From a virus, in IMG/VR virus record IMGVR_UViG_3300034272_001996, positions 1-32,557 of that record: DNA of 32,557 nt. One strand, given 5' to 3'. Both the position numbers and the translations under genes were made by a program. Each line of letters starts with the position of its first letter. Position 1 is the first letter of the stretch. Positions 6,998-25,588 of the stretch are shown here, one piece after another. The notes below the pieces were generated by a model that saw only the letters and a list, made by a program, of their open reading frames with translations, ran no database searches and had not been told where the DNA came from.

Positions 6998-7687
6998 ATG
7001 TCACATAAAGTAGCAATTGTCTCTTGTACGAGAAAACTAAAAGAAGAAGCAAATAAATTACCAATTTATAGATCATATAAAGATGGATTAGAATTACATA
7101 ATTGTATATTAGATATTACTTGGGAAAATTTAGATGGTATGCCCACTGTTTATAACAGAAAAATACAGGAATATAAGAATACTGATGTAGAATTTTTGGT
7201 ATGTGTACATGATGATGTATATATTGATGACCTTAAATTATATGAAAAACTTAAAATGGCTAATACTAAATTAGGTTATAATATAATTGGATTAGCTGGA
7301 GGTCTTAATCCAAGATTAACAAATCCAGCTTTATGGCACATCATGACTGATAAACTACAACAACGAGGTGAAGTAGCACATCCTGCTGGTGATAATAATC
7401 AAACTATGACAACCGCTTTTGGACCTACACCTAGTAGAGTAGCTATAATTGATGGGTTATTTATGGCAATTCATCTTCCTTCTGTTACTAAAACAGATTG
7501 GAAATTTAATGAAAATTATATGTTTCATCATTATGATATTTCTAGTTGTATTGATGCTAATAGAAAAAATTTAAGAATTGGCGTATATCCTATACATGTT
7601 ATACATAGTTCTCCCGGTTTATTATCATTACATGATAAAATGTGGTCTGATAGTAATGAAAAGTTTTTAAAAGAATATCATCAATAG
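6998..7687 (+). CDS. GT-A-like glycosyltransferase (family 2-type)
   Basis: 229 residues. The N-terminus VAIVSCTRK starts a Rossmann-like strand; FLVCVHDDVYIDD (about residues 66-78) is a DxD-type metal/nucleotide-sugar site; GLAGG, PALWH and an acidic/histidine stretch MFHHYDIS follow, all at spacing normal for small phage GT-A enzymes. It would transfer a sugar from a nucleotide donor; the acceptor is unknown. It is the second glycosyltransferase here, of a different fold from the one at 608. A class I promoter with the best consensus (TTGATT-16-TAAAAT) ends 6 nt before the ATG. Both glycosyltransferases share the promoter class of replication genes, which hints at DNA or host-surface modification during infection rather than virion decoration. 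Confidence 0.7.
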   Translation: MSHKVAIVSCTRKLKEEANKLPIYRSYKDGLELHNCILDITWENLDGMPTVYNRKIQEYKNTDVEFLVCVHDDVYIDDLKLYEKLKMANTKLGYNIIGLAGGLNPRLTNPALWHIMTDKLQQRGEVAHPAGDNNQTMTTAFGPTPSRVAIIDGLFMAIHLPSVTKTDWKFNENYMFHHYDISSCIDANRKNLRIGVYPIHVIHSSPGLLSLHDKMWSDSNEKFLKEYHQ

Positions 7688-13906: not shown

Positions 13907-14308
13907 ATGGAATTACAAATTTCTTCAAAAGAATTATTAAATGCTGTAGAAGTACCATCTTCAATAACAGATTCAAAAAATATTATCGAACAATATAATG
14001 ATATTTCAAATCAAGTGAGAAATGCTTTATTGTGTAAGGATAAAAATTTATTTAAACCTTACGATATGGGATCAATTTATAAATGCAAATCAGATTCTGG
14101 AAATGATGCTTTTAGAAACATTTTACAATTATTAAGAGATTTTTATATTTTAAAATATAAAAACAACAATGTCAAAGATTTGACATCGAGGAAAATATTT
14201 GATACAATGCTTTCAAGTTTAGAGTGTTTAATGGTTAATGATATTGATGTTTCGACAAATGAAATTAATGCTCTGCTTCTTGGTTTTTTAACTAAAAATT
14301 TTTTATGA
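13907..14308 (+). CDS. Unknown protein, second gene of the 13483 operon
   Basis: 133 residues, mixed helical, starting MELQISSKELLNAVEVPSS, with a YDMGSIYKCKSD stretch in the middle and a C-terminal helical region ending LLGFLTKNFL. No domain recognised. It begins one base after the previous stop and overlaps the next start as ATGA, so it is translated from the class I transcript beginning at 13483. Confidence 0.65.
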   Translation: MELQISSKELLNAVEVPSSITDSKNIIEQYNDISNQVRNALLCKDKNLFKPYDMGSIYKCKSDSGNDAFRNILQLLRDFYILKYKNNNVKDLTSRKIFDTMLSSLECLMVNDIDVSTNEINALLLGFLTKNFL

Positions 14309-14607
14309 TTAATAAGATATCTGTAACGACAAAATCTAATAAAAAGCATATTATGAATATTGAAACATATGCTAGATGGCTATGTTTATTAGAATCAATG
14401 CACTATATTTCTGAAAATGCTAAGAAAAATAAAGTAAATTTAGAAAAATCTTCAAAATGGATTAAACCTTTAGCTATTCAAAAATATGTAAAAGAAAGAT
14501 TTCCTAGTATGCTTCATGATTTTAAAACAGAAGAAAACTTATATCTAGATTCAAGTTTATTTAAACATATTGCTGACCACCATCAATCCCATAAAATTCA
14601 CCATTAA
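14305..14607 (+). CDS. Unknown basic protein, end of the 13483 operon
   Basis: 100 residues, Lys-rich and helical (NIETYARWLCLLESMHYIS), ending in a His-rich tail (IADHHQSHKIHH). That tail is encoded antisense to the last 15 codons of the convergent fibre gene: the two coding regions overlap by 47 nt, and the tail may simply be a by-product of the fibre's conserved end. A TAATAGCTATTA palindrome (14605-14616) lies at its stop. No domain recognised. Confidence 0.6.
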   Translation: MINKISVTTKSNKKHIMNIETYARWLCLLESMHYISENAKKNKVNLEKSSKWIKPLAIQKYVKERFPSMLHDFKTEENLYLDSSLFKHIADHHQSHKIHH

Positions 14608-17029
14608 TAGCTATTATGGTTACTACATCAGATGTATTAATTACATTTGTAAATGATGGCTTTTCATCTCCTTGAGAAGCCCATAATACATTTTTACTAT
14701 TAATATTCCAATTAATAGTTGAGTTATTTGTTTTTTGATTTAAAAAGAATGTAAAATAATAAACTTTATTTGGATTTATGTTTTGGATAGTAAATCCATT
14801 AATTGATGAAGTTACATTTATTTGAAAAACCGTACATGCACTAGCATTTAATGTTAATGTACTTGATGAAGTTAATAATTTATAACCTTGTGCATGTCTT
14901 TTAAATGATGTTTTATTGATAGCTGTATCTTTTAATTTGGTATAGTTATCCGCATCTGCAATTTTTTCAGCATATTGTTTAGTAGCAATTTCCTTAGAAG
15001 TATTCGGGTCAGAAAATGCTGATAAGTAATTAGTTATTTTTACATTTCCTGCTATAGGAACACTTAAATTTGGTTTAAATGTATCATCTATAGATTTTTT
15101 TGTTACTATATGATTAGCTGAAATTGCACTTAATACAGTTAAGTTTCCCGGTGTTATAGTTCCACCGGTATAACGTAAAAATTTCTTTGCTTCTTTTTCT
15201 AATAAATCAGCATATGATTTTGGTATTATAATTGTAGGATCTTCACCTAATTTAATAGGTGAAGTAATATTTGGTACTGTTAAATTTATAGGACCAGTAA
15301 TTACAGCATCTTGATTTTTTGGTAATAATGTACTTAATGAAGAATTTATAGTATCTACTGCCTGTTTATGTAAAATTTGTTTAGAAGCAGTTGGATAACT
15401 ATTTATATATAATTTACCAGTAATAGTTTCATTACCACTTAAATGTACATAATTTGTATTTGCATTATTTGCTAAACTATCTACATATTGTTTATTTGCT
15501 ATTTCTTGATCAGCATTAGGATCATTTTCAATTATTAATTCTCCGGGTAATACAATAGGAGCATCTTTGGTAATAAAAATAGTTGGAGGTTTAAGTATTT
15601 CATCTACATATGCTTTATTTGCTATTTCAACTCTTGTATTTGGTATTAACACTCCTAATGGTCCAGTTAATTTTCCTCCTTCTATACGTAAACTATTAAT
15701 TATAATATCATAAGCCGTATCTATATATTGTTTATCTGCAATAAGTTTTGGATTTTGTAATTGATAGTTTAATGGTTGGACCGATAATTCTCCACCTTTT
15801 CTATTAATAACACTAAGAGCACCGCCAGTTGTTTGTATATAATTTCCTGTATTATTTCGAGTATCAGCATATAGTAAAGTAGCTACTTGATTACTAAGTG
15901 TTGGTTCTACTAATACTGATAAAGTACCAGTAATGGTATCATAACCACTTATTTTTACATAAGTACTGCTTAAGTAATTAGCAATATTATCTACGTATTC
16001 TTTTATAACAATATGATTAGCTGATATAGGATAAAATGCGGATAAAGCACCTGTCATTAAATCTCCAGTTATTTTTACAAACTTATCATGATTTATTGTT
16101 AAATCTACATAATATTTATTTGCTATTTCTGATGAAACATTTGGAGTTAATACGCTTATGGGATTAGTAAATAAAAATCCTCCACCAACACTTAAATAAT
16201 TTGTTTTGGTAATAGTATTAGCTTTTATTACATAATCACGATCTGCTATATAATTTAAACTATTACTTGATAATGAAGGAATAATTATAGAACCAGTTAA
16301 TTCACCACCGCTGAGTAAAAGAAAATCTTTGGAATTATTATTTTGATCCGCATATTTTTTAGTTACTATATGTGAATTATCTATAGGTTCTATTACTGAT
16401 ACATGGTTAGTAATAGAATCAAATCCTGATAAATGTACATAATTACTTAATTCATTAAATAAAGTATCTACATATTGTTTGGTTGATGTATGATACAAGT
16501 CAGTTGGATTTGAATGTAAACATAAAGAACCAGTCATAGTGGAACCATTTCTACTTACATAATTATTTGGATTTATTAAACTATTATTGATTTCGATAAT
16601 ATGATCATCTACATATTTTTTATTAATTAAATCGTAGCTATCTATTGGTGAAATAACACTTAAATTATTAATCAAATTATATCTTAAATTAATATAGTTA
16701 TTAAAATCTGTATTTTCAAAAACAGATAATGTTGAATTTAATACAAGAGGCCCAGTTATTTTTTCATTAATGTTATAAAGTAATCCATTTTTATCTAATT
16801 TTGATGATAAAGATATTTCTATATTAGTAACATTATTTTCTAAAGTATTAATATTGAACGGAAATGTTGTATTTATAAATGATTTTATTTGATCTATATA
16901 ATTAGAAAATGTAATTTTTCTTGTAACATAAGATCCACTGCTATTATCAAATATATCTACAATAGCATAATCGTTATTATTAATTGTGGAAGATTCTGAT
17001 AAATCATTTATAAAATCAAAATTACTCAT
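14561..17029 (-). CDS. Tail fibre/adhesin paralogue B, 14 degenerate repeats
   Basis: 822 residues. N-terminal ~100 residues (NDLSESSTINNNDYAIVDI ... KLDKNGLL ... GPLVLNSTLSVFE) match the N-terminus of the next gene upstream. The body is about 14 repeats of 35-45 residues of the type 'G..LTGPLSVL.P....IANKxYVD', typical of phage long tail fibres, many decayed (KKYAD, KQAVD, KKSID). The C-terminal tip ends WAS...GEFYGIDGGQQYV, similar to the paralogue's tip. Such proteins trimerise and bind host surface; the chaperone and receptor are unknown. It starts 2 nt after the paralogue's stop without its own late box, so it is read from the promoter at 19509. Confidence 0.85.
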   Translation of the reverse strand: MSNFDFINDLSESSTINNNDYAIVDIFDNSSGSYVTRKITFSNYIDQIKSFINTTFPFNINTLENNVTNIEISLSSKLDKNGLLYNINEKITGPLVLNSTLSVFENTDFNNYINLRYNLINNLSVISPIDSYDLINKKYVDDHIIEINNSLINPNNYVSRNGSTMTGSLCLHSNPTDLYHTSTKQYVDTLFNELSNYVHLSGFDSITNHVSVIEPIDNSHIVTKKYADQNNNSKDFLLLSGGELTGSIIIPSLSSNSLNYIADRDYVIKANTITKTNYLSVGGGFLFTNPISVLTPNVSSEIANKYYVDLTINHDKFVKITGDLMTGALSAFYPISANHIVIKEYVDNIANYLSSTYVKISGYDTITGTLSVLVEPTLSNQVATLLYADTRNNTGNYIQTTGGALSVINRKGGELSVQPLNYQLQNPKLIADKQYIDTAYDIIINSLRIEGGKLTGPLGVLIPNTRVEIANKAYVDEILKPPTIFITKDAPIVLPGELIIENDPNADQEIANKQYVDSLANNANTNYVHLSGNETITGKLYINSYPTASKQILHKQAVDTINSSLSTLLPKNQDAVITGPINLTVPNITSPIKLGEDPTIIIPKSYADLLEKEAKKFLRYTGGTITPGNLTVLSAISANHIVTKKSIDDTFKPNLSVPIAGNVKITNYLSAFSDPNTSKEIATKQYAEKIADADNYTKLKDTAINKTSFKRHAQGYKLLTSSSTLTLNASACTVFQINVTSSINGFTIQNINPNKVYYFTFFLNQKTNNSTINWNINSKNVLWASQGDEKPSFTNVINTSDVVTIIAINGEFYGIDGGQQYV

Positions 17030-17031
17030 AA

Positions 17032-19503
17032 TTATGCAAAAGTTTGACCTGAACTAAATCCATACCATTTAGCAGTGCTAAGAGCTGAACCTATACAAGT
17101 TAATGTTATTATATCTACAGCATTTTGTAATTTACTAACAATAGGAGGATTAAATCCAGAAGCCCATGCAACATTTGTGGTTGTTGAATTTATTGTTGTT
17201 GCCCATGTTATATTATAAAATGCAGCGGTAGTACCCATTTGTTTTATAAAAAATGTTATATTATGTATAAATCCAGATCCAAATGTACCTATTAAATTAA
17301 TTCCAGTAATATTTGCTTTTAAATTAATAAAATATGTATTTGAAAATTTAGAAGTACCAAGATTTGATCCAAAATCTATAGTTAATGGTCCATTAGTATT
17401 AAAATCAACTGTTTGTACTTCTTCGCAATAAGCTGATAAAACTACTAATCCATCCATTTGTCCACCACTTAAAGGTAAATATTTTCCACTTGGATTTATA
17501 GTAGTGTCTACATATAATTTATTAGCTGCTTCGCTAGGTGAAGTAGGAGAGTTAACTGATAACGGACCAGTCATACTACCACCACTTATTGGTAAATAAT
17601 TTCCAATTATAGCAGTTGATTTGGTATCTACATATGCTTTATTAGCTGCATGAGAATCTGAAGTAGGATTTGATACATTCAAATAACCAGTCATAGTACC
17701 ACCACTTAAAGGTACATAACCTGTGATAGTTGGTATTCTATCATCTACATATTTTTTGTTTATAACTTCATTATCATTTGTAGGTGGAGTTGGTCTATCT
17801 AAATAAATAACTTTAGTAATAGTAACACCACCCGACAAAGGTACATATTCTGAAGGCTTTATTAAAAGATCTATATATCCTTTATTAGCAGCTTGATTAC
17901 TTGGATCAGAACTAACTAATTCTTGTATATATAAAGGACCAGTCATAGTACCACCTGCTAATGGTAAGAATGTATTTGGTGGAAATTTATCATCTACATA
18001 TTTTTTTGTAGCAGCTTCTTTATTTTGTGTTGGTGTAAGTACAGTTAATGGACCTGTTATAGTTCCCCCAGATAAAGTTAAAAATGATGATGTTGGTATT
18101 ACTTTAGAATCTACATATGCTTTATTTGCTGCATGATCAGATAATGTAGGAGTTAATACAGATAAAGGACCAGTTAATGAACGATTACCAGAAATAGGTA
18201 CATAATGACCAGTAAATGCTAAGTTAAAATAATAATCTACATATTCTTTATTTGCTGCATGTTCTTTGTTTATTGGATCTAATACAGATAATGGTCCCGT
18301 CATAGTTCCACCGCTAAGAGGAAGATATGACGCACCAACAATATATTTGCTATCTATATATTTTTTATTAACTACTTGATTTAATGGACTTGATGGAGTA
18401 ATGTCTATGACATATAAAGGACCATCAACAGCTCCACCTGACAATGGTAAATAAAATTTTCCAATTAATTCTTTTTTATCATCTACATATTGTTTGTTAA
18501 CTGCTTCTGGATTTGCACTAGGAGATAAAACTGATAAATAACCAGTCATAGATCCCCCAGATAATGGTAAAAATGACGAAATAGATAATACTTTAGAATC
18601 TACATATTCTTTATTTGCAGCATGATCACATAATGTAGGAGTTAATACAGATAAAGGACCAGTAATTGAAACATTGCCTGAAATAGGTACAAAATTTGTT
18701 ATAGTTACGGGAGATACTAAACTATCTACATATTTTTTTGTAGCAGGATGATTACCAGCAGTTGGTTCTAATACTGATAATGGTCCAGTTAAAGTTCCAC
18801 CAGATAAAGGTAAAAATGGACCTTTTACAATTCTATCATCTACATATTTTTTATTAGCTGCTTCTACATCAGTATTAGGAGAAATGACAGATAAGGGTCC
18901 AGTTACAGAACCACCAGATAAATGCAAATAAATATTATTTGGGTATTTGTCATCTACATATTTTTTTGTTGCAGCATGATAATTTTCAGTTGGTGTATTA
19001 TTGGGTAATGTTAAAAACCCTGTCATAGTATCACCACTTTTTAAAATTAAACCTGAAGCATTTGGTATATTTAAAGTATTATATTTATCATCTATATACT
19101 TTTTATTAGCACCATCAAAATCTGATTCTGGAGTTGCTACATTTATAATTTTATTCCTATGTAAATTTATGCTTTTAGTAAAATGGGCTACATCAAAAAC
19201 TGATAATGTAGAATTAATACTTAACGGACCAACCATTTTTTCATTTGATGAAAAATTCAAACCAGTTTTATCTAATTTATTTGCTACGGTTTGTGTTATA
19301 TTTGTTATATTGGTTTGTATTGTATTGAATGTATTTTGTATTTCATTATTAATATTAGTCGATAATAATCTTACTAATGTATTATAAGATACTTTTTTAG
19401 TATAATATTGTCCAGTATTAGTATCTACAACATCAAAAACAGTATAATCATTACTAGTAATAATTGTAGATTCATTTAATCTATAAATAAAAGAATCAGC
19501 CAT
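17032..19503 (-). CDS. Tail fibre/adhesin paralogue A, 14 well-kept repeats
   Basis: 823 residues, one more than its downstream paralogue. Fourteen repeats built on 'YLPLSGGTMTGPLSVL.P....AANKKYVD', the classic phage fibre repeat, run from about residue 100 to 720. The N-terminal domain (FIYRLNESTIITSNDYTVFD, coiled NTIQTNITNITQTVANKLDK) probably attaches to the virion; the C-terminal ~100 residues, ending KWYGFSSGQTFA, form a probable receptor-binding tip. Repeats are far more alike than those of the paralogue, at DNA level too, so repeat number could change by recombination. The late box AATAAATA ends 5 nt before the ATG. Confidence 0.88.
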   Translation of the reverse strand: MADSFIYRLNESTIITSNDYTVFDVVDTNTGQYYTKKVSYNTLVRLLSTNINNEIQNTFNTIQTNITNITQTVANKLDKTGLNFSSNEKMVGPLSINSTLSVFDVAHFTKSINLHRNKIINVATPESDFDGANKKYIDDKYNTLNIPNASGLILKSGDTMTGFLTLPNNTPTENYHAATKKYVDDKYPNNIYLHLSGGSVTGPLSVISPNTDVEAANKKYVDDRIVKGPFLPLSGGTLTGPLSVLEPTAGNHPATKKYVDSLVSPVTITNFVPISGNVSITGPLSVLTPTLCDHAANKEYVDSKVLSISSFLPLSGGSMTGYLSVLSPSANPEAVNKQYVDDKKELIGKFYLPLSGGAVDGPLYVIDITPSSPLNQVVNKKYIDSKYIVGASYLPLSGGTMTGPLSVLDPINKEHAANKEYVDYYFNLAFTGHYVPISGNRSLTGPLSVLTPTLSDHAANKAYVDSKVIPTSSFLTLSGGTITGPLTVLTPTQNKEAATKKYVDDKFPPNTFLPLAGGTMTGPLYIQELVSSDPSNQAANKGYIDLLIKPSEYVPLSGGVTITKVIYLDRPTPPTNDNEVINKKYVDDRIPTITGYVPLSGGTMTGYLNVSNPTSDSHAANKAYVDTKSTAIIGNYLPISGGSMTGPLSVNSPTSPSEAANKLYVDTTINPSGKYLPLSGGQMDGLVVLSAYCEEVQTVDFNTNGPLTIDFGSNLGTSKFSNTYFINLKANITGINLIGTFGSGFIHNITFFIKQMGTTAAFYNITWATTINSTTTNVAWASGFNPPIVSKLQNAVDIITLTCIGSALSTAKWYGFSSGQTFA

Positions 19504-19519: not shown

Positions 19520-20227
19520 TTAGGTCTTATGCAATAAGAAACCAGTATTTGTTGGGTCTGGTATTCCAATTCCTATATAAGAACTTGAAGGAGATTGTAA
19601 AGTATAATAAGTTTCTATAGCAGGAACTATTATTGGTTTTTGTGATATTGTAGTAGTTGGTATGTAATCAATTCCTTGATATTGTATGGCCTTTAACTTA
19701 AATGTTATTTTATTACCATTTGCGGTTAATGGTGATGAATATGAAAATCCAATTTTATAAAAATCATCAATTTTAGGACTTAAATTTAATGCAAATTCTC
19801 CTACAGATACATATTCATCTGTAGTTTTATCTTTAATTGAAATTATTAAAGTTTGTCCAATATTAGTAAAATTACAACGTATTGTATTATATATTACAGT
19901 ATTTTTTACCAATGGTGATAAACTTGAAGGAAGATTAAATGATGTTAGTACATTAAATCCTGTACCTTTAATTATTTTAACAGTATTATCACTAAAAAAT
20001 AATACACCTAATACAGCTCCACTTACACCATTTGTTGAATTATAATCAGTATATCCTAATCCAGAATAAGGTCCACCCCCAGATAATATATGATTATTAA
20101 ATAAAAATGTAGAAAATCCTCCAGTAGCAGTATTTGATCCAGTAATTGCATATTGAAATGACCATGTAATATCAAAATTTGCATTATAATTCTGTTTTAT
20201 ATAAAAATTAGAAGTAGAATCAGCCAT
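19520..20227 (-). CDS. Lectin-like (jelly-roll) structural protein
   Basis: 235 residues. The pattern 'FSTFLFNN..LSGGGPYSGLGY ... GVSGAVLGVLFF ... IYNTIRCNFTNIGQTLIISIKDK ... DFYKIGFSYSSPLTANGNKITF' is like the L-type lectin/concanavalin fold found in phage virion proteins, including the antiparallel strands and the KIGFSYSSP turn. It probably binds glycans on the host or decorates the virion. The last ~45 residues (PTTTISQKPIIVP...) look like a separate linker or tail. The late box TTAAATA ends 6 nt before the ATG and shares an inverted repeat with the divergent gene at 20257. Confidence 0.65.
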   Translation of the reverse strand: MADSTSNFYIKQNYNANFDITWSFQYAITGSNTATGGFSTFLFNNHILSGGGPYSGLGYTDYNSTNGVSGAVLGVLFFSDNTVKIIKGTGFNVLTSFNLPSSLSPLVKNTVIYNTIRCNFTNIGQTLIISIKDKTTDEYVSVGEFALNLSPKIDDFYKIGFSYSSPLTANGNKITFKLKAIQYQGIDYIPTTTISQKPIIVPAIETYYTLQSPSSSYIGIGIPDPTNTGFLLHKT

Positions 20228-20256: not shown

Positions 20257-21741
20257 ATGGCAGGAAATGCACGTTTTCATAATAAACTTCACAGAAAGGA
20301 TCATCATACTAATCCTACTGAAGGATTTCCTGATAGCGGAACTGATCCAATAGCTTCACCGCAAGAACCATTCCAAGGAGATTTTGTAATTAATGGTACA
20401 CTTAGTTGTACTGGTTTCCAAGTAGCTTCTGCTGATTTTTCTGGAGATGTAAAATGTGAAAACCTTACAGTAAGAGATACAACATTATGTAATTTTATAT
20501 CTGGAGATGATACGGAAACTATTATTAGTGATGGTGCATTAACAGGTTTTGGAGATTTTACTATGACGATGGATTTTCGTCAAGGTATATATGCGAAAAC
20601 TCCTAAATTTAATATAACTGGTATATTATCATGTGACCAAAGTGCAAATATAGGAACTAATCTTCAAGTTAATGGAAATTCTACAATTAATGGAAATTTA
20701 TTAATTAATGGAGATTTATCTATATTAGGAGATTCTTGTATTATTAATACTACAGTAGCTACTACTAGTTCATTATCAGTTTATAATACTGGAAATTCTT
20801 CTGCTTTAACTATATCACAAATTAATACAACATATCCTATTGCAATATTTAAAAATAATACAACTAGTATATTAGAAATAAGTTCTAATGGTATAAATGT
20901 AACAGGAAATGGTATATTTACTGGAAGTGTAAATGCAGTTAATATTAATATATTACAATCTGCATCTTCTAAATGGGATTCTTCATATAATAATTTAACA
21001 GCACAAAGTGCTAATTGGAATAATACATTTAATTCTGTAAACATTACTAGTGCTAATTGGAATAATACATTTACTTCTGTAAAAAATGCTAGTGCTGACT
21101 GGAATAATACATTTAATTCTGTAAACTATGCTAGTGCTAATTGGAATAATACATTTACTTCAGTAACTTCTAATAGTTCTAATTGGAATAACGTATTTAC
21201 TTCTGTAAAAGACACTAGTGCTAACTGGAATAACGTATTTACTTCTGTAAAAGACACTAGTGCTAATTGGAATAATGTATATACTTCAGTAAAAGATACT
21301 AGTGCTAATTGGAATAATGTATATACTACAGTTAGAGATAATAGTGCAGGGGATTGGCTTAGTGGAAATTCTACTATAAATTTTGTTGCTAGTACAGGTA
21401 CATTTACTCATCAACTTTCCACAAAATCAATTAAAATACATAATGCTATGTATGCTGCGATATTATCGGCTACATTAACTGGTACAATATCATTAACTAT
21501 TGATTCTGGAACATATTTATTTATAAATTGTAATGGTATAGCTAGAGATTTAGAATTACCTGCTGTCAATTCAGAACATAAAGGATTAATGTATATGATA
21601 AAAAATACATCACCTACTAATGTAGATTTACACGTACATTATAATGGTGGGTTAGCTCAACCAGCAATAGTAAGTATTTCTTATGGTACATATAAGAGAA
21701 TATTTGCTAGTGGAGTAACAAATAATTGGTTAGTAATGTAA
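20257..21741 (+). CDS. Tail fibre-like virion protein with 14-residue W-N repeats
   Basis: 494 residues. The N-terminus (MAGNARFHNKLHRKDHHTNP ... PDSGTDPIASP) resembles an attachment region of structural proteins in marine T4-like phages. Residues 40-230 are beta-strand rich with INGNLLINGDLSILGDS-like turns typical of beta-helical fibres. Residues about 237-362 are nine 14-residue repeats (SANWNNxFTSVKDT), then a C-terminal ~115-residue domain (LELPAVNSEHKGLMYMIKN) that is probably the tip. The late box CTAAATA ends 5 nt before the ATG. The Trp-Asn spacing suggests a repeating shaft or coiled fibril. Confidence 0.8.
   Translation: MAGNARFHNKLHRKDHHTNPTEGFPDSGTDPIASPQEPFQGDFVINGTLSCTGFQVASADFSGDVKCENLTVRDTTLCNFISGDDTETIISDGALTGFGDFTMTMDFRQGIYAKTPKFNITGILSCDQSANIGTNLQVNGNSTINGNLLINGDLSILGDSCIINTTVATTSSLSVYNTGNSSALTISQINTTYPIAIFKNNTTSILEISSNGINVTGNGIFTGSVNAVNINILQSASSKWDSSYNNLTAQSANWNNTFNSVNITSANWNNTFTSVKNASADWNNTFNSVNYASANWNNTFTSVTSNSSNWNNVFTSVKDTSANWNNVFTSVKDTSANWNNVYTSVKDTSANWNNVYTTVRDNSAGDWLSGNSTINFVASTGTFTHQLSTKSIKIHNAMYAAILSATLTGTISLTIDSGTYLFINCNGIARDLELPAVNSEHKGLMYMIKNTSPTNVDLHVHYNGGLAQPAIVSISYGTYKRIFASGVTNNWLVM
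20965..21342 (+). repeat. Nine tandem 42-bp coding repeats
   Basis: Nine in-frame units of 42 bp encode SxNWNNxFTSVxxx. The first is degenerate (SSKWDSSYNNLTAQ); the last four are nearly identical in DNA, which indicates recent expansion at the 3' side. Confidence 0.9.
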
Positions 21742-21743
21742 TT

Positions 21744-22052
21744 ATGTTTATAAAAAATGGTAGCTTTAAAAAATATAAGCATATAATATCATATGTGCCT
21801 GTAGTAATTACACGACAACCATTAAGTGGTGTTGCTACAGTAGGTAGTACTTTTGTATTTTATATCAATGTAAAAGGAAGTGCGCCTATAACTTATCAAT
21901 GGTATAGGAGTAATTTTCCTATAAGTAATGCGAAAACAAATACGTTGACATTAAATTTAGTTCAACTTAGTTCTAATAATACTTATTATTGTAAAGTAGG
22001 AAATAACAAATATACAATAGATAGTAATACAGTTAGATTATCTGTAATTTAA
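21744..22052 (+). CDS. Ig-like domain protein, probable virion decoration
   Basis: 102 residues from ATG 21744 (an upstream TTG at 21726 lies inside the previous gene and is rejected). After ~20 basic residues, an Ig-like (I-set) pattern is clear: ITRQPLSGVATVGSTFVF, ITYQWYR, NTLTLNLVQLSSNNTYYCKV and NTVRLSVI. The YxC before the last strand is the conserved Ig position; the partner cysteine of the disulphide is replaced, as is common in phage Ig domains. Such domains give weak binding to host glycans or stabilise virions. It starts 2 nt after the fibre stop and its stop overlaps that of the convergent gene by 4 nt. Confidence 0.75.
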   Translation: MFIKNGSFKKYKHIISYVPVVITRQPLSGVATVGSTFVFYINVKGSAPITYQWYRSNFPISNAKTNTLTLNLVQLSSNNTYYCKVGNNKYTIDSNTVRLSVI

Positions 22053-23827: not shown

Positions 23828-23878
23828 CTCGATTATGCATTTTTTTTGAATAAAATAAAAAAAATTTTTTAATTGTAT

Positions 23879-23885
23879 CTAAGTA
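23879..23885 (+). promoter_or_regulatory. Late promoter box variant, terminase
   Basis: CTAAGTA, 5 nt to ATG 23891. Shared with 30149. Confidence 0.6.
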
Positions 23886-23890
23886 CTTAT

Positions 23891-25588
23891 ATGTCAAGAA
23901 AGCCCAAAAAAGAAATTTACATGAATAATCCTGCACTTCCAACAGTGGAAGCGCAATTTGAATGGACTCCGCACATGGTGTCTGAATTAAAGAAGTGTAA
24001 AGAAAATATATTATACTTTGCTGAAAAATATTTTTATATTGTTTCTACAGATGAAGGAAGACAAACTATTAAATTACATTCATTTCAAAAAAAAGCATTA
24101 AGAATGATTCGTGATAATCGTTTTAGTTTATTATTGTTTAGTAGACAGGTAGGTAAATCTACTATTTCTACGATATTTTTATTGTGGGTTGCAATTTTTC
24201 AAGACGATCAAAGATTATTACTTGTTGCAAACAAAGAAAATACAGCAAAAGAAATATTTAGAAGAGTAAGATTTGCATATGAAAATTTACCTAATTGGCT
24301 TAAAGCTCCTGTAAATTATTATGGATTAGAATCAATGGAGTTATCAAATGGTTCGCGTATAGGTATTACTACTACAACTGGTACTGCTGGTCGTGGTTCA
24401 TCGGCTAATTTATTATTTGTTGATGAAGCAGATTGGATAGAACCTAATATGTTAAATGAGTTTTGGGCATCTGTATATCCAATTATTTCTTCATCTAAAA
24501 AGTCAAAAATAATTATGGCATCTACACCAAGAGATACTTCAGGATTATTTTATAAACTTTATGATGGATCATTAAAAGGTAAAAATGATTGGGCGCATAT
24601 GAAAGTATTGTGGCATGAAGTTCCCGGTAGAGATGAAAAGTGGAAACGAGAAACGATGGGATCTTTAGCAGATGAAAGCATGTGGCAAAGAGAATTTGAA
24701 TGCGAATTTGATCAAGTAGGAGAGTCCGCAATTGATGAATTATTGTTTGATGACATGAAAAGATATACATTTGAACCAATGTATGTATTTGATGATGGTA
24801 GATATTTATTATGGGAAAAACCTAATGATGAAAGAATTTATGTTGCTGGTGTAGATATAGCTGAAGGTGTAGGAAAAGATTATACGGTAATACAAATTTT
24901 AGATATCACAGATCCAAAAAAAATAAAGCAAGTAGCAACATATGCTAATAATAAAATATCTCCATCAGAATTTACCGTTAAATTAAAAGAAATATTAGAA
25001 CATTGGGGTAATCCATTAGCAATGATAGAAAGAAATGGTTGTGGTGGTCAAGTAATAGATAATTTAAAAAGAGAATATAATTATGAAAATATTGTAAATT
25101 GGGGTGTTAATAAAGTAGTAACGAGAACAACAAATCAATATGGTATTATTGCACATACAAATACTAAAGGTCTTGCGGTGACTAATCAACGATATTTTAT
25201 TACTAGTGCTAAATGTGTACAAATAAATGATATTAATACAGTTTTAGAATTAAAAGATTTTGTTAGACATAAAAATGGTGGATGGGGAGCAAAACATGGT
25301 TCAAACGACGATAGAGTTACATCATTAATGTGGGCTTTAATGATTTTACACGAAGAAATTGCTCCATCATTTTTTGATATTGTTGAAAAAGATTTAAATA
25401 ATAAACCATCTATAATAAAATCTATAGATTATGGTATAAAATATTTTATAAATCCTACATCTATATACACTAATGAAAGAAATAAAGAAGGTTTTGATGT
25501 ATTGCCTTGTGTGATGGGTGGATCACAACATTCGGATCAACCAGAATTAGAAGATTTAATGATGCAAGGTTGGAAGCCTTATCAATAA
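23891..25588 (+). CDS. 17: Large terminase subunit (gp17-like)
   Basis: 565 residues from ATG 23891 (T4 gp17 is 610). ATPase domain: Walker A SRQVGKST (about 84-91), Walker B LLFVDEADWIE (about 174-184) with the catalytic Glu. Nuclease domain of RNase H fold: D322 in VAGVDIAEG, E380 in AMIERNGCG, and D473/D474 in SNDDRVTS, matching the T4 triad. It cuts and pumps concatemeric DNA into proheads. A TTG at 23873 upstream is rejected because the late box variant CTAAGTA ends 5 nt before 23891. The small subunit gp16 is not in the window. Confidence 0.96.
   Translation: MSRKPKKEIYMNNPALPTVEAQFEWTPHMVSELKKCKENILYFAEKYFYIVSTDEGRQTIKLHSFQKKALRMIRDNRFSLLLFSRQVGKSTISTIFLLWVAIFQDDQRLLLVANKENTAKEIFRRVRFAYENLPNWLKAPVNYYGLESMELSNGSRIGITTTTGTAGRGSSANLLFVDEADWIEPNMLNEFWASVYPIISSSKKSKIIMASTPRDTSGLFYKLYDGSLKGKNDWAHMKVLWHEVPGRDEKWKRETMGSLADESMWQREFECEFDQVGESAIDELLFDDMKRYTFEPMYVFDDGRYLLWEKPNDERIYVAGVDIAEGVGKDYTVIQILDITDPKKIKQVATYANNKISPSEFTVKLKEILEHWGNPLAMIERNGCGGQVIDNLKREYNYENIVNWGVNKVVTRTTNQYGIIAHTNTKGLAVTNQRYFITSAKCVQINDINTVLELKDFVRHKNGGWGAKHGSNDDRVTSLMWALMILHEEIAPSFFDIVEKDLNNKPSIIKSIDYGIKYFINPTSIYTNERNKEGFDVLPCVMGGSQHSDQPELEDLMMQGWKPYQ

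Follow-up and report, generated by a model that had tools for sequence, protein, structure and literature searches.

A second repeat-built tail fibre in the adhesin slot of a T4-like phage fragment

The window, i.e., the whole stretch of DNA that was analysed, is an entire virus record from IMG/VR, 32,557 bases long, and encodes two tandem tail fibres, here called A and B. Fibre A occupies the slot (slot A) in which 12 relatives have an adhesin-like gene. On balance we lean towards the reading that a second fibre replaced a tip-adhesin gene, turning a fibre-plus-adhesin system into a two-fibre system with two receptor-binding arms.

The window and the order of the fibre locus

The window represents part of a T4-like myovirus genome and encodes a T4-type terminase (best matches 33–37% identity), sheath and head-closure families, and gp32 and RecA/UvsX-type genes. 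The large terminase copy of the window (23873–25588) is uninterrupted; in relatives of this gene (L146:16322–19057, L121:1–1851 and L125:17093–18826) it is interrupted by intein/homing-endonuclease sequence (Intein_splicing, LAGLIDADG_3, Hom_end). A glycosyltransferase-like gene (6998–7687; PF13712, E = 3.7e-12), 81% identical in L118, lies near the replication genes. The occurrence of the late-promoter motif TATAAATA was not above chance.

The fibre locus contains the following genes:
14305–14607, plus strand: convergent flanking gene, which marks the edge of the slot and was used to find relatives
14561–17029, minus strand: fibre A, 822 aa, with the same layout as fibre B and varied repeats
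17032–19503, minus strand: fibre B, 823 aa, with an N-terminal domain, 14 alike repeats and an all-beta tip; translated first
19520–20227, minus strand: gene upstream of fibre B, 235 aa, which adjoins the fibre in relatives

Relatives were found via the sheath, the flanking gene and the upstream gene. Their order is the same as in the window, running from the flanking gene through slot A and the fibre to the upstream gene, and it continues with divergent genes at 20257–21741 and 21726–22052 (window coordinates). Searches of Pfam, PHROGs and solved structures gave no match for the 235-aa upstream gene. Its homologue in L116 (9109–10893) carries an inserted NHL beta-propeller, and across the relatives such propellers were present in three different genes of the fibre locus. 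In the divergent plus-strand pair at 20257–22052, the first gene codes for a fibre-like protein built on SANWNNxFxSVKD repeats and the next for a small protein with an Ig domain; the two may form a second pair of fibre and adhesin.

Two intact fibre genes of common layout

The first-pass annotation had described tandem fibre genes of 822 and 823 residues with a common layout, and this description held: both are intact open reading frames with 14 repeats each, with 2 nt lying between the fibre B stop codon and the fibre A start codon (ATG). The two proteins aligned over residues 6–822 and 5–823 with 32% identity (E = 4e-88), and they share their repeat array far beyond chance. Each array follows the pattern SGGxMTGxL...NKxYVD. 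The repeats matched chains of phage hyaluronidases as well as PHROG families of tail fibres; PHROG tail-fibre matches were obtained with fibre B. Fibre B is the counterpart of the single fibre of the relatives. Pfam hits to NDNF and Topo_VI_alpha were discarded as chance or repeat artefacts, a search with fibre B returned mostly unrelated phages (e.g., L008) that have only the anchor motif in common with it, and a literature search with the repeat string gave no hits.

Slot A in relatives holds adhesin-like genes with a common hook

In most relatives the fibre is single and has about 2 to 7 repeats. In 12 of them (L115, L116, L117, L118, L119, L128, L131, L135, L138, L141, L144 and L209) slot A holds a gene that is unrelated to the fibres. 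All but one of these genes share an N-terminal hook, MPIGNALAVIxS or a variant of it; the 11 start with M-x-[I/V/L]-G, eight of them with MP[I/V/L]G. The bodies that follow the hook are unrelated to each other and consist of NHL propellers, Ig, He_PIG or cadherin-like domains. The slot-A gene of L118 matched the Pfam GP38 adhesin (PF05268, E = 3.8e-8). Fibre A, the slot-A gene of the window, had no match to the PF05268 model, and a search for the hook across the window found none encoded.

In T2-type phages gp38 sits at the tip of gp37 and binds it via the gp38 N-terminus (PMC12892980). By analogy, that genes with unrelated bodies have a short start in common suggests a shared docking partner, and the slot-A adhesin of the relatives probably docks on the fibre tip. 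A fibre may also occur without an adhesin: in L130 the fibre adjoins the flanking gene, has an ordinary tip and is not accompanied by an adhesin, although its contig ends inside the flanking gene.

Base domains and tips of the two fibres are related

The terminal domains are located as follows:
19120–19503, minus strand: N-terminal base domain of fibre B (residues 1–128), with 40–50% identity to the only or the first fibre in relatives
16646–17029, minus strand: N-terminal base domain of fibre A (residues 1–128), 39–41% identical to that of fibre B
17035–17421, minus strand: C-terminal tip of fibre B, predicted all-beta domain
14564–14884, minus strand: C-terminal tip of fibre A, predicted all-beta domain, pLDDT mostly above 90

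The base domain of fibre A was about as close to that of fibre B as to that of any other fibre. A tree of these domains did not separate one old duplication from independent ones, and the AU test rejected none of them.

The A and B tips are homologous, at only 23–27% identity, and are members of a single family in which positions with W, P, D, G and Q are invariant; the fibre A tip was 27% identical to that of fibre B and 33% to the tip of an L126 gene. When the two tips were predicted separately, both had the phage spike 9ny6_C as their top solved-structure match (E ∼6e-4 each), with low overall TM-scores of the models against it. PHROG 9017 (tail fiber protein) was matched by 13 of the 15 tips, fibre A at 8.5e-5, and the window tips fall into a known fibre/spike family by these matches. 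Since the base domains are ∼40% identical and the tips share a family and a fold match, the termini of the two genes are related rather than of separate structure, in line with the duplication that had been proposed for them. The L126 homologue of the fibre-like protein at 20257–22052 also carries a C-terminal tip of the same family as that of fibre A.

The repeat arrays pair only at their first two units

The arrays and two matching blocks within fibre B are located as follows:
17506–19218, minus strand: repeat array of fibre B, 14 units (SGGTMTGPLSVL...NKxYVD)
14966–16735, minus strand: repeat array of fibre A, 14 varied units
17986–18206, minus strand: block in fibre B, units 9–10, 81% DNA identity to 18475–18695 over 221 nt
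18475–18695, minus strand: partner copy in fibre B, units 5–6

The repeat units of both fibres are 38–49 aa long and end in an NKxYVD-like anchor. Mean unit-unit scores were 70.7 within B and 30.4 within A, which bears out the earlier observation of a uniform array beside a varied one. Repeats 1 and 2 of A had repeats 1 and 2 of B as their best matches. For units 3–14, identity between A and B was 35.3% at the same position and 35.1% at different positions (permutation P = 0.35), whereas positional pairing was detected in all runs of simulated duplicates at similar divergence; as unit lengths stay fixed in these simulations and replacements are BLOSUM-like, their power may be overstated.

The shared base domain, the pairing of repeats 1–2 and the common tip family support the view that A and B are paralogous tandem fibres. 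The proposal of the first-pass annotation, a whole-gene duplication followed by divergence, thus stands as far as paralogy is concerned; the orthologous pairing of repeats that it would entail was found at units 1–2 and was absent from units 3–14. Because duplication was always detected in the simulations, the arrays have therefore turned over, or one of them has been replaced or recombined, since any common origin.

Uniformity of array B and looser constraint on array A

It had been suggested that gene conversion keeps the repeats of B alike. At shared residues of the B repeats, the fraction of identical codons was 0.637, compared with 0.615 under synonymous shuffling (P = 0.10). Synonymous codons close to random argue that B has not been freshly homogenised, and gene conversion was not borne out except in the one 221-nt block of units 9–10 and 5–6, which is an apparent block duplication or conversion. 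As the B repeats are alike as proteins but scrambled at synonymous sites, the uniformity of the array is better read as the outcome of protein-level selection, apart from that one putative two-unit block duplication. The alternative, that concerted evolution (gene conversion or unit duplication) and not selection made B uniform, draws on the 81% DNA identity of the block and on recent unit duplicates in other fibres, e.g., units 5–6 of L138 and units 2 and 4 of L117, but it does not fit synonymous codons that are near random across the array, and we consider it improbable.

Nonsynonymous divergence between repeats was 0.474 in A and 0.361 in B of the window, and 0.450 in A and 0.339 in B of L132, the only other genome with two fibres among those compared. 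The higher values in A of both genomes indicate that the slot-A fibre is the looser one in the window and in L132. Synonymous sites were near saturation everywhere; dating by synonymous change was abandoned and no dN/dS is claimed. The A repeats had also been described as decayed. They are indeed more varied, but the gene is intact over 822 codons, a pair of its odd units is found again in L132, and array A is better described as being under looser constraint than as decaying. At shared residues of the varied slot-A arrays (window A and L132 A), codon identity was somewhat above random (P = 0.002); the uniform slot-B arrays did not have this excess.

L132 carries the second pair of fibres

Fibre B of L132 (584 aa) was 48% identical to fibre B of the window over 490 columns. 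Its fibre A (937 aa) consists of the N-terminal domain, an inserted NHL propeller, 8 repeats and the tip, and the propeller was closest (38%) to the one that L116 has in its slot-A gene. The best matches of window fibre A units 3 and 4 were two neighbouring units of L132 fibre A, 5 and 6; unit 4 scored 87 against unit 6, and at most 49 against the other units of fibre B and of both L132 fibres. This match of consecutive units suggests a common ancestry for the slot-A fibres of the two genomes. In unit-chain tests on the gene pairs of the two paired genomes, only the internal units of L132 A and B looked collinear (P = 0.004, ∼30 tests).

The repeat numbers of B and A were 14 and 14 in the window and 9 and 8 in L132, in a range of about 2 to 14 across genomes. 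That, once a second fibre had taken over the adhesin slot, they are held equal within a paired genome, because both arms need to arrive at the host together or have to co-assemble, is a doubtful proposition.

How the second fibre may have arisen

In the relatives, one repeat-built and probably trimeric fibre is followed by a separate adhesin that probably docks on its tip. In the window phage a second fibre, paralogous to B through the N-terminal domain and the first repeats, would have taken the place of the adhesin gene. As both fibres have the same type of base domain, trimers of A and B would probably attach by it to the same kind of baseplate site. The repeats would form a stalk of matched length, and with fibres of equal length both beta tips could reach and contact the host. 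The phage would then show two binding arms instead of a fibre plus adhesin, with the stalk of B remaining constrained and that of A evolving more freely. We infer the trimers, the common attachment site, adhesin docking and the two receptors from sequence. The first-pass annotation had raised two receptor specificities as a possibility, and the adhesin-slot context makes them more plausible. Against this reading of the locus speak the occurrence of the paired state in two genomes only and the unpaired internal repeats; the window being a fragment, an adhesin may also lie elsewhere in the genome.

Fibre A may alternatively be a xenologue that recombined into slot A from another phage of the clade with its own array and tip. 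For this speak a tip that is no closer to that of B than to others such as that of the L126 gene, the presence of tips, propellers and Ig domains in different genes of the fibre locus, and the lack of pairing between the internal arrays of A and B. However, no closer relative or donor of fibre A was found in the IMG/VR search, and its N-terminal domain is about as near to B as to any other fibre; we regard this origin as possible, though not probable. If the complete fibre gene with its array had simply been duplicated in tandem and A had then decayed under relaxed selection, this would explain the equal length, equal repeat number and collinear alignment of the two genes as well as the higher nonsynonymous divergence within A. 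Such an origin is at odds with the lack of pairing in units 3–14, which simulated duplicates always retained (with power that may be overstated), and with the open frame of A and the recurrence of its odd units in L132, and appears unlikely. The replacement of a tip-adhesin gene by a second fibre remains the reading that we prefer.

Comparison with known systems and implications

As in the T-even gp37/gp38 system (T2/S16 type), the relatives have a fibre gene and then a separate adhesin gene, with a hook-like N-terminus and one GP38 Pfam match; unlike that system, the fibres here are repeat-built with another N-terminal domain and tip, and the window has a second fibre instead of the adhesin gene. 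Streptococcal phage hyaluronidases (HylP-type) are similar in their LSGGTMTGPL-type repeats, which matched solved chains and the PHROG hyaluronidase family, but only the repeat segment aligned, the window array has 14 units, and the catalytic lyase domain of HylP was not found in the window fibres. Among annotated phages, those of Streptomyces, Klebsiella and Synechococcus have repeat tail fibres that were about 25–37% identical over the repeats, but no record covered 80% of the window protein. Ackermannviridae have branched tailspike complexes with several receptor-binding proteins per particle and modular exchange (PMC11414711). More than one binding protein and modular exchange would be common to the window phage, judging from its genes, whereas the window has two full-length paralogues of equal length in place of a branched complex. 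Repeat fibres and adhesin swapping are thus already known, and the unusual point, in two genomes only, is a length-matched paralogue that replaces the adhesin slot.

The hook offers a testable docking rule by which adhesins could be predicted even though their bodies share no sequence. Within one clade, the locus presents a series of changes, from one fibre with exchangeable, hook-sharing tip adhesins to a second fibre in the adhesin slot, which extends in L132 to an adhesin-type propeller fused into the second fibre. The paired fibres suggest one way in which phages could acquire another host-binding arm.
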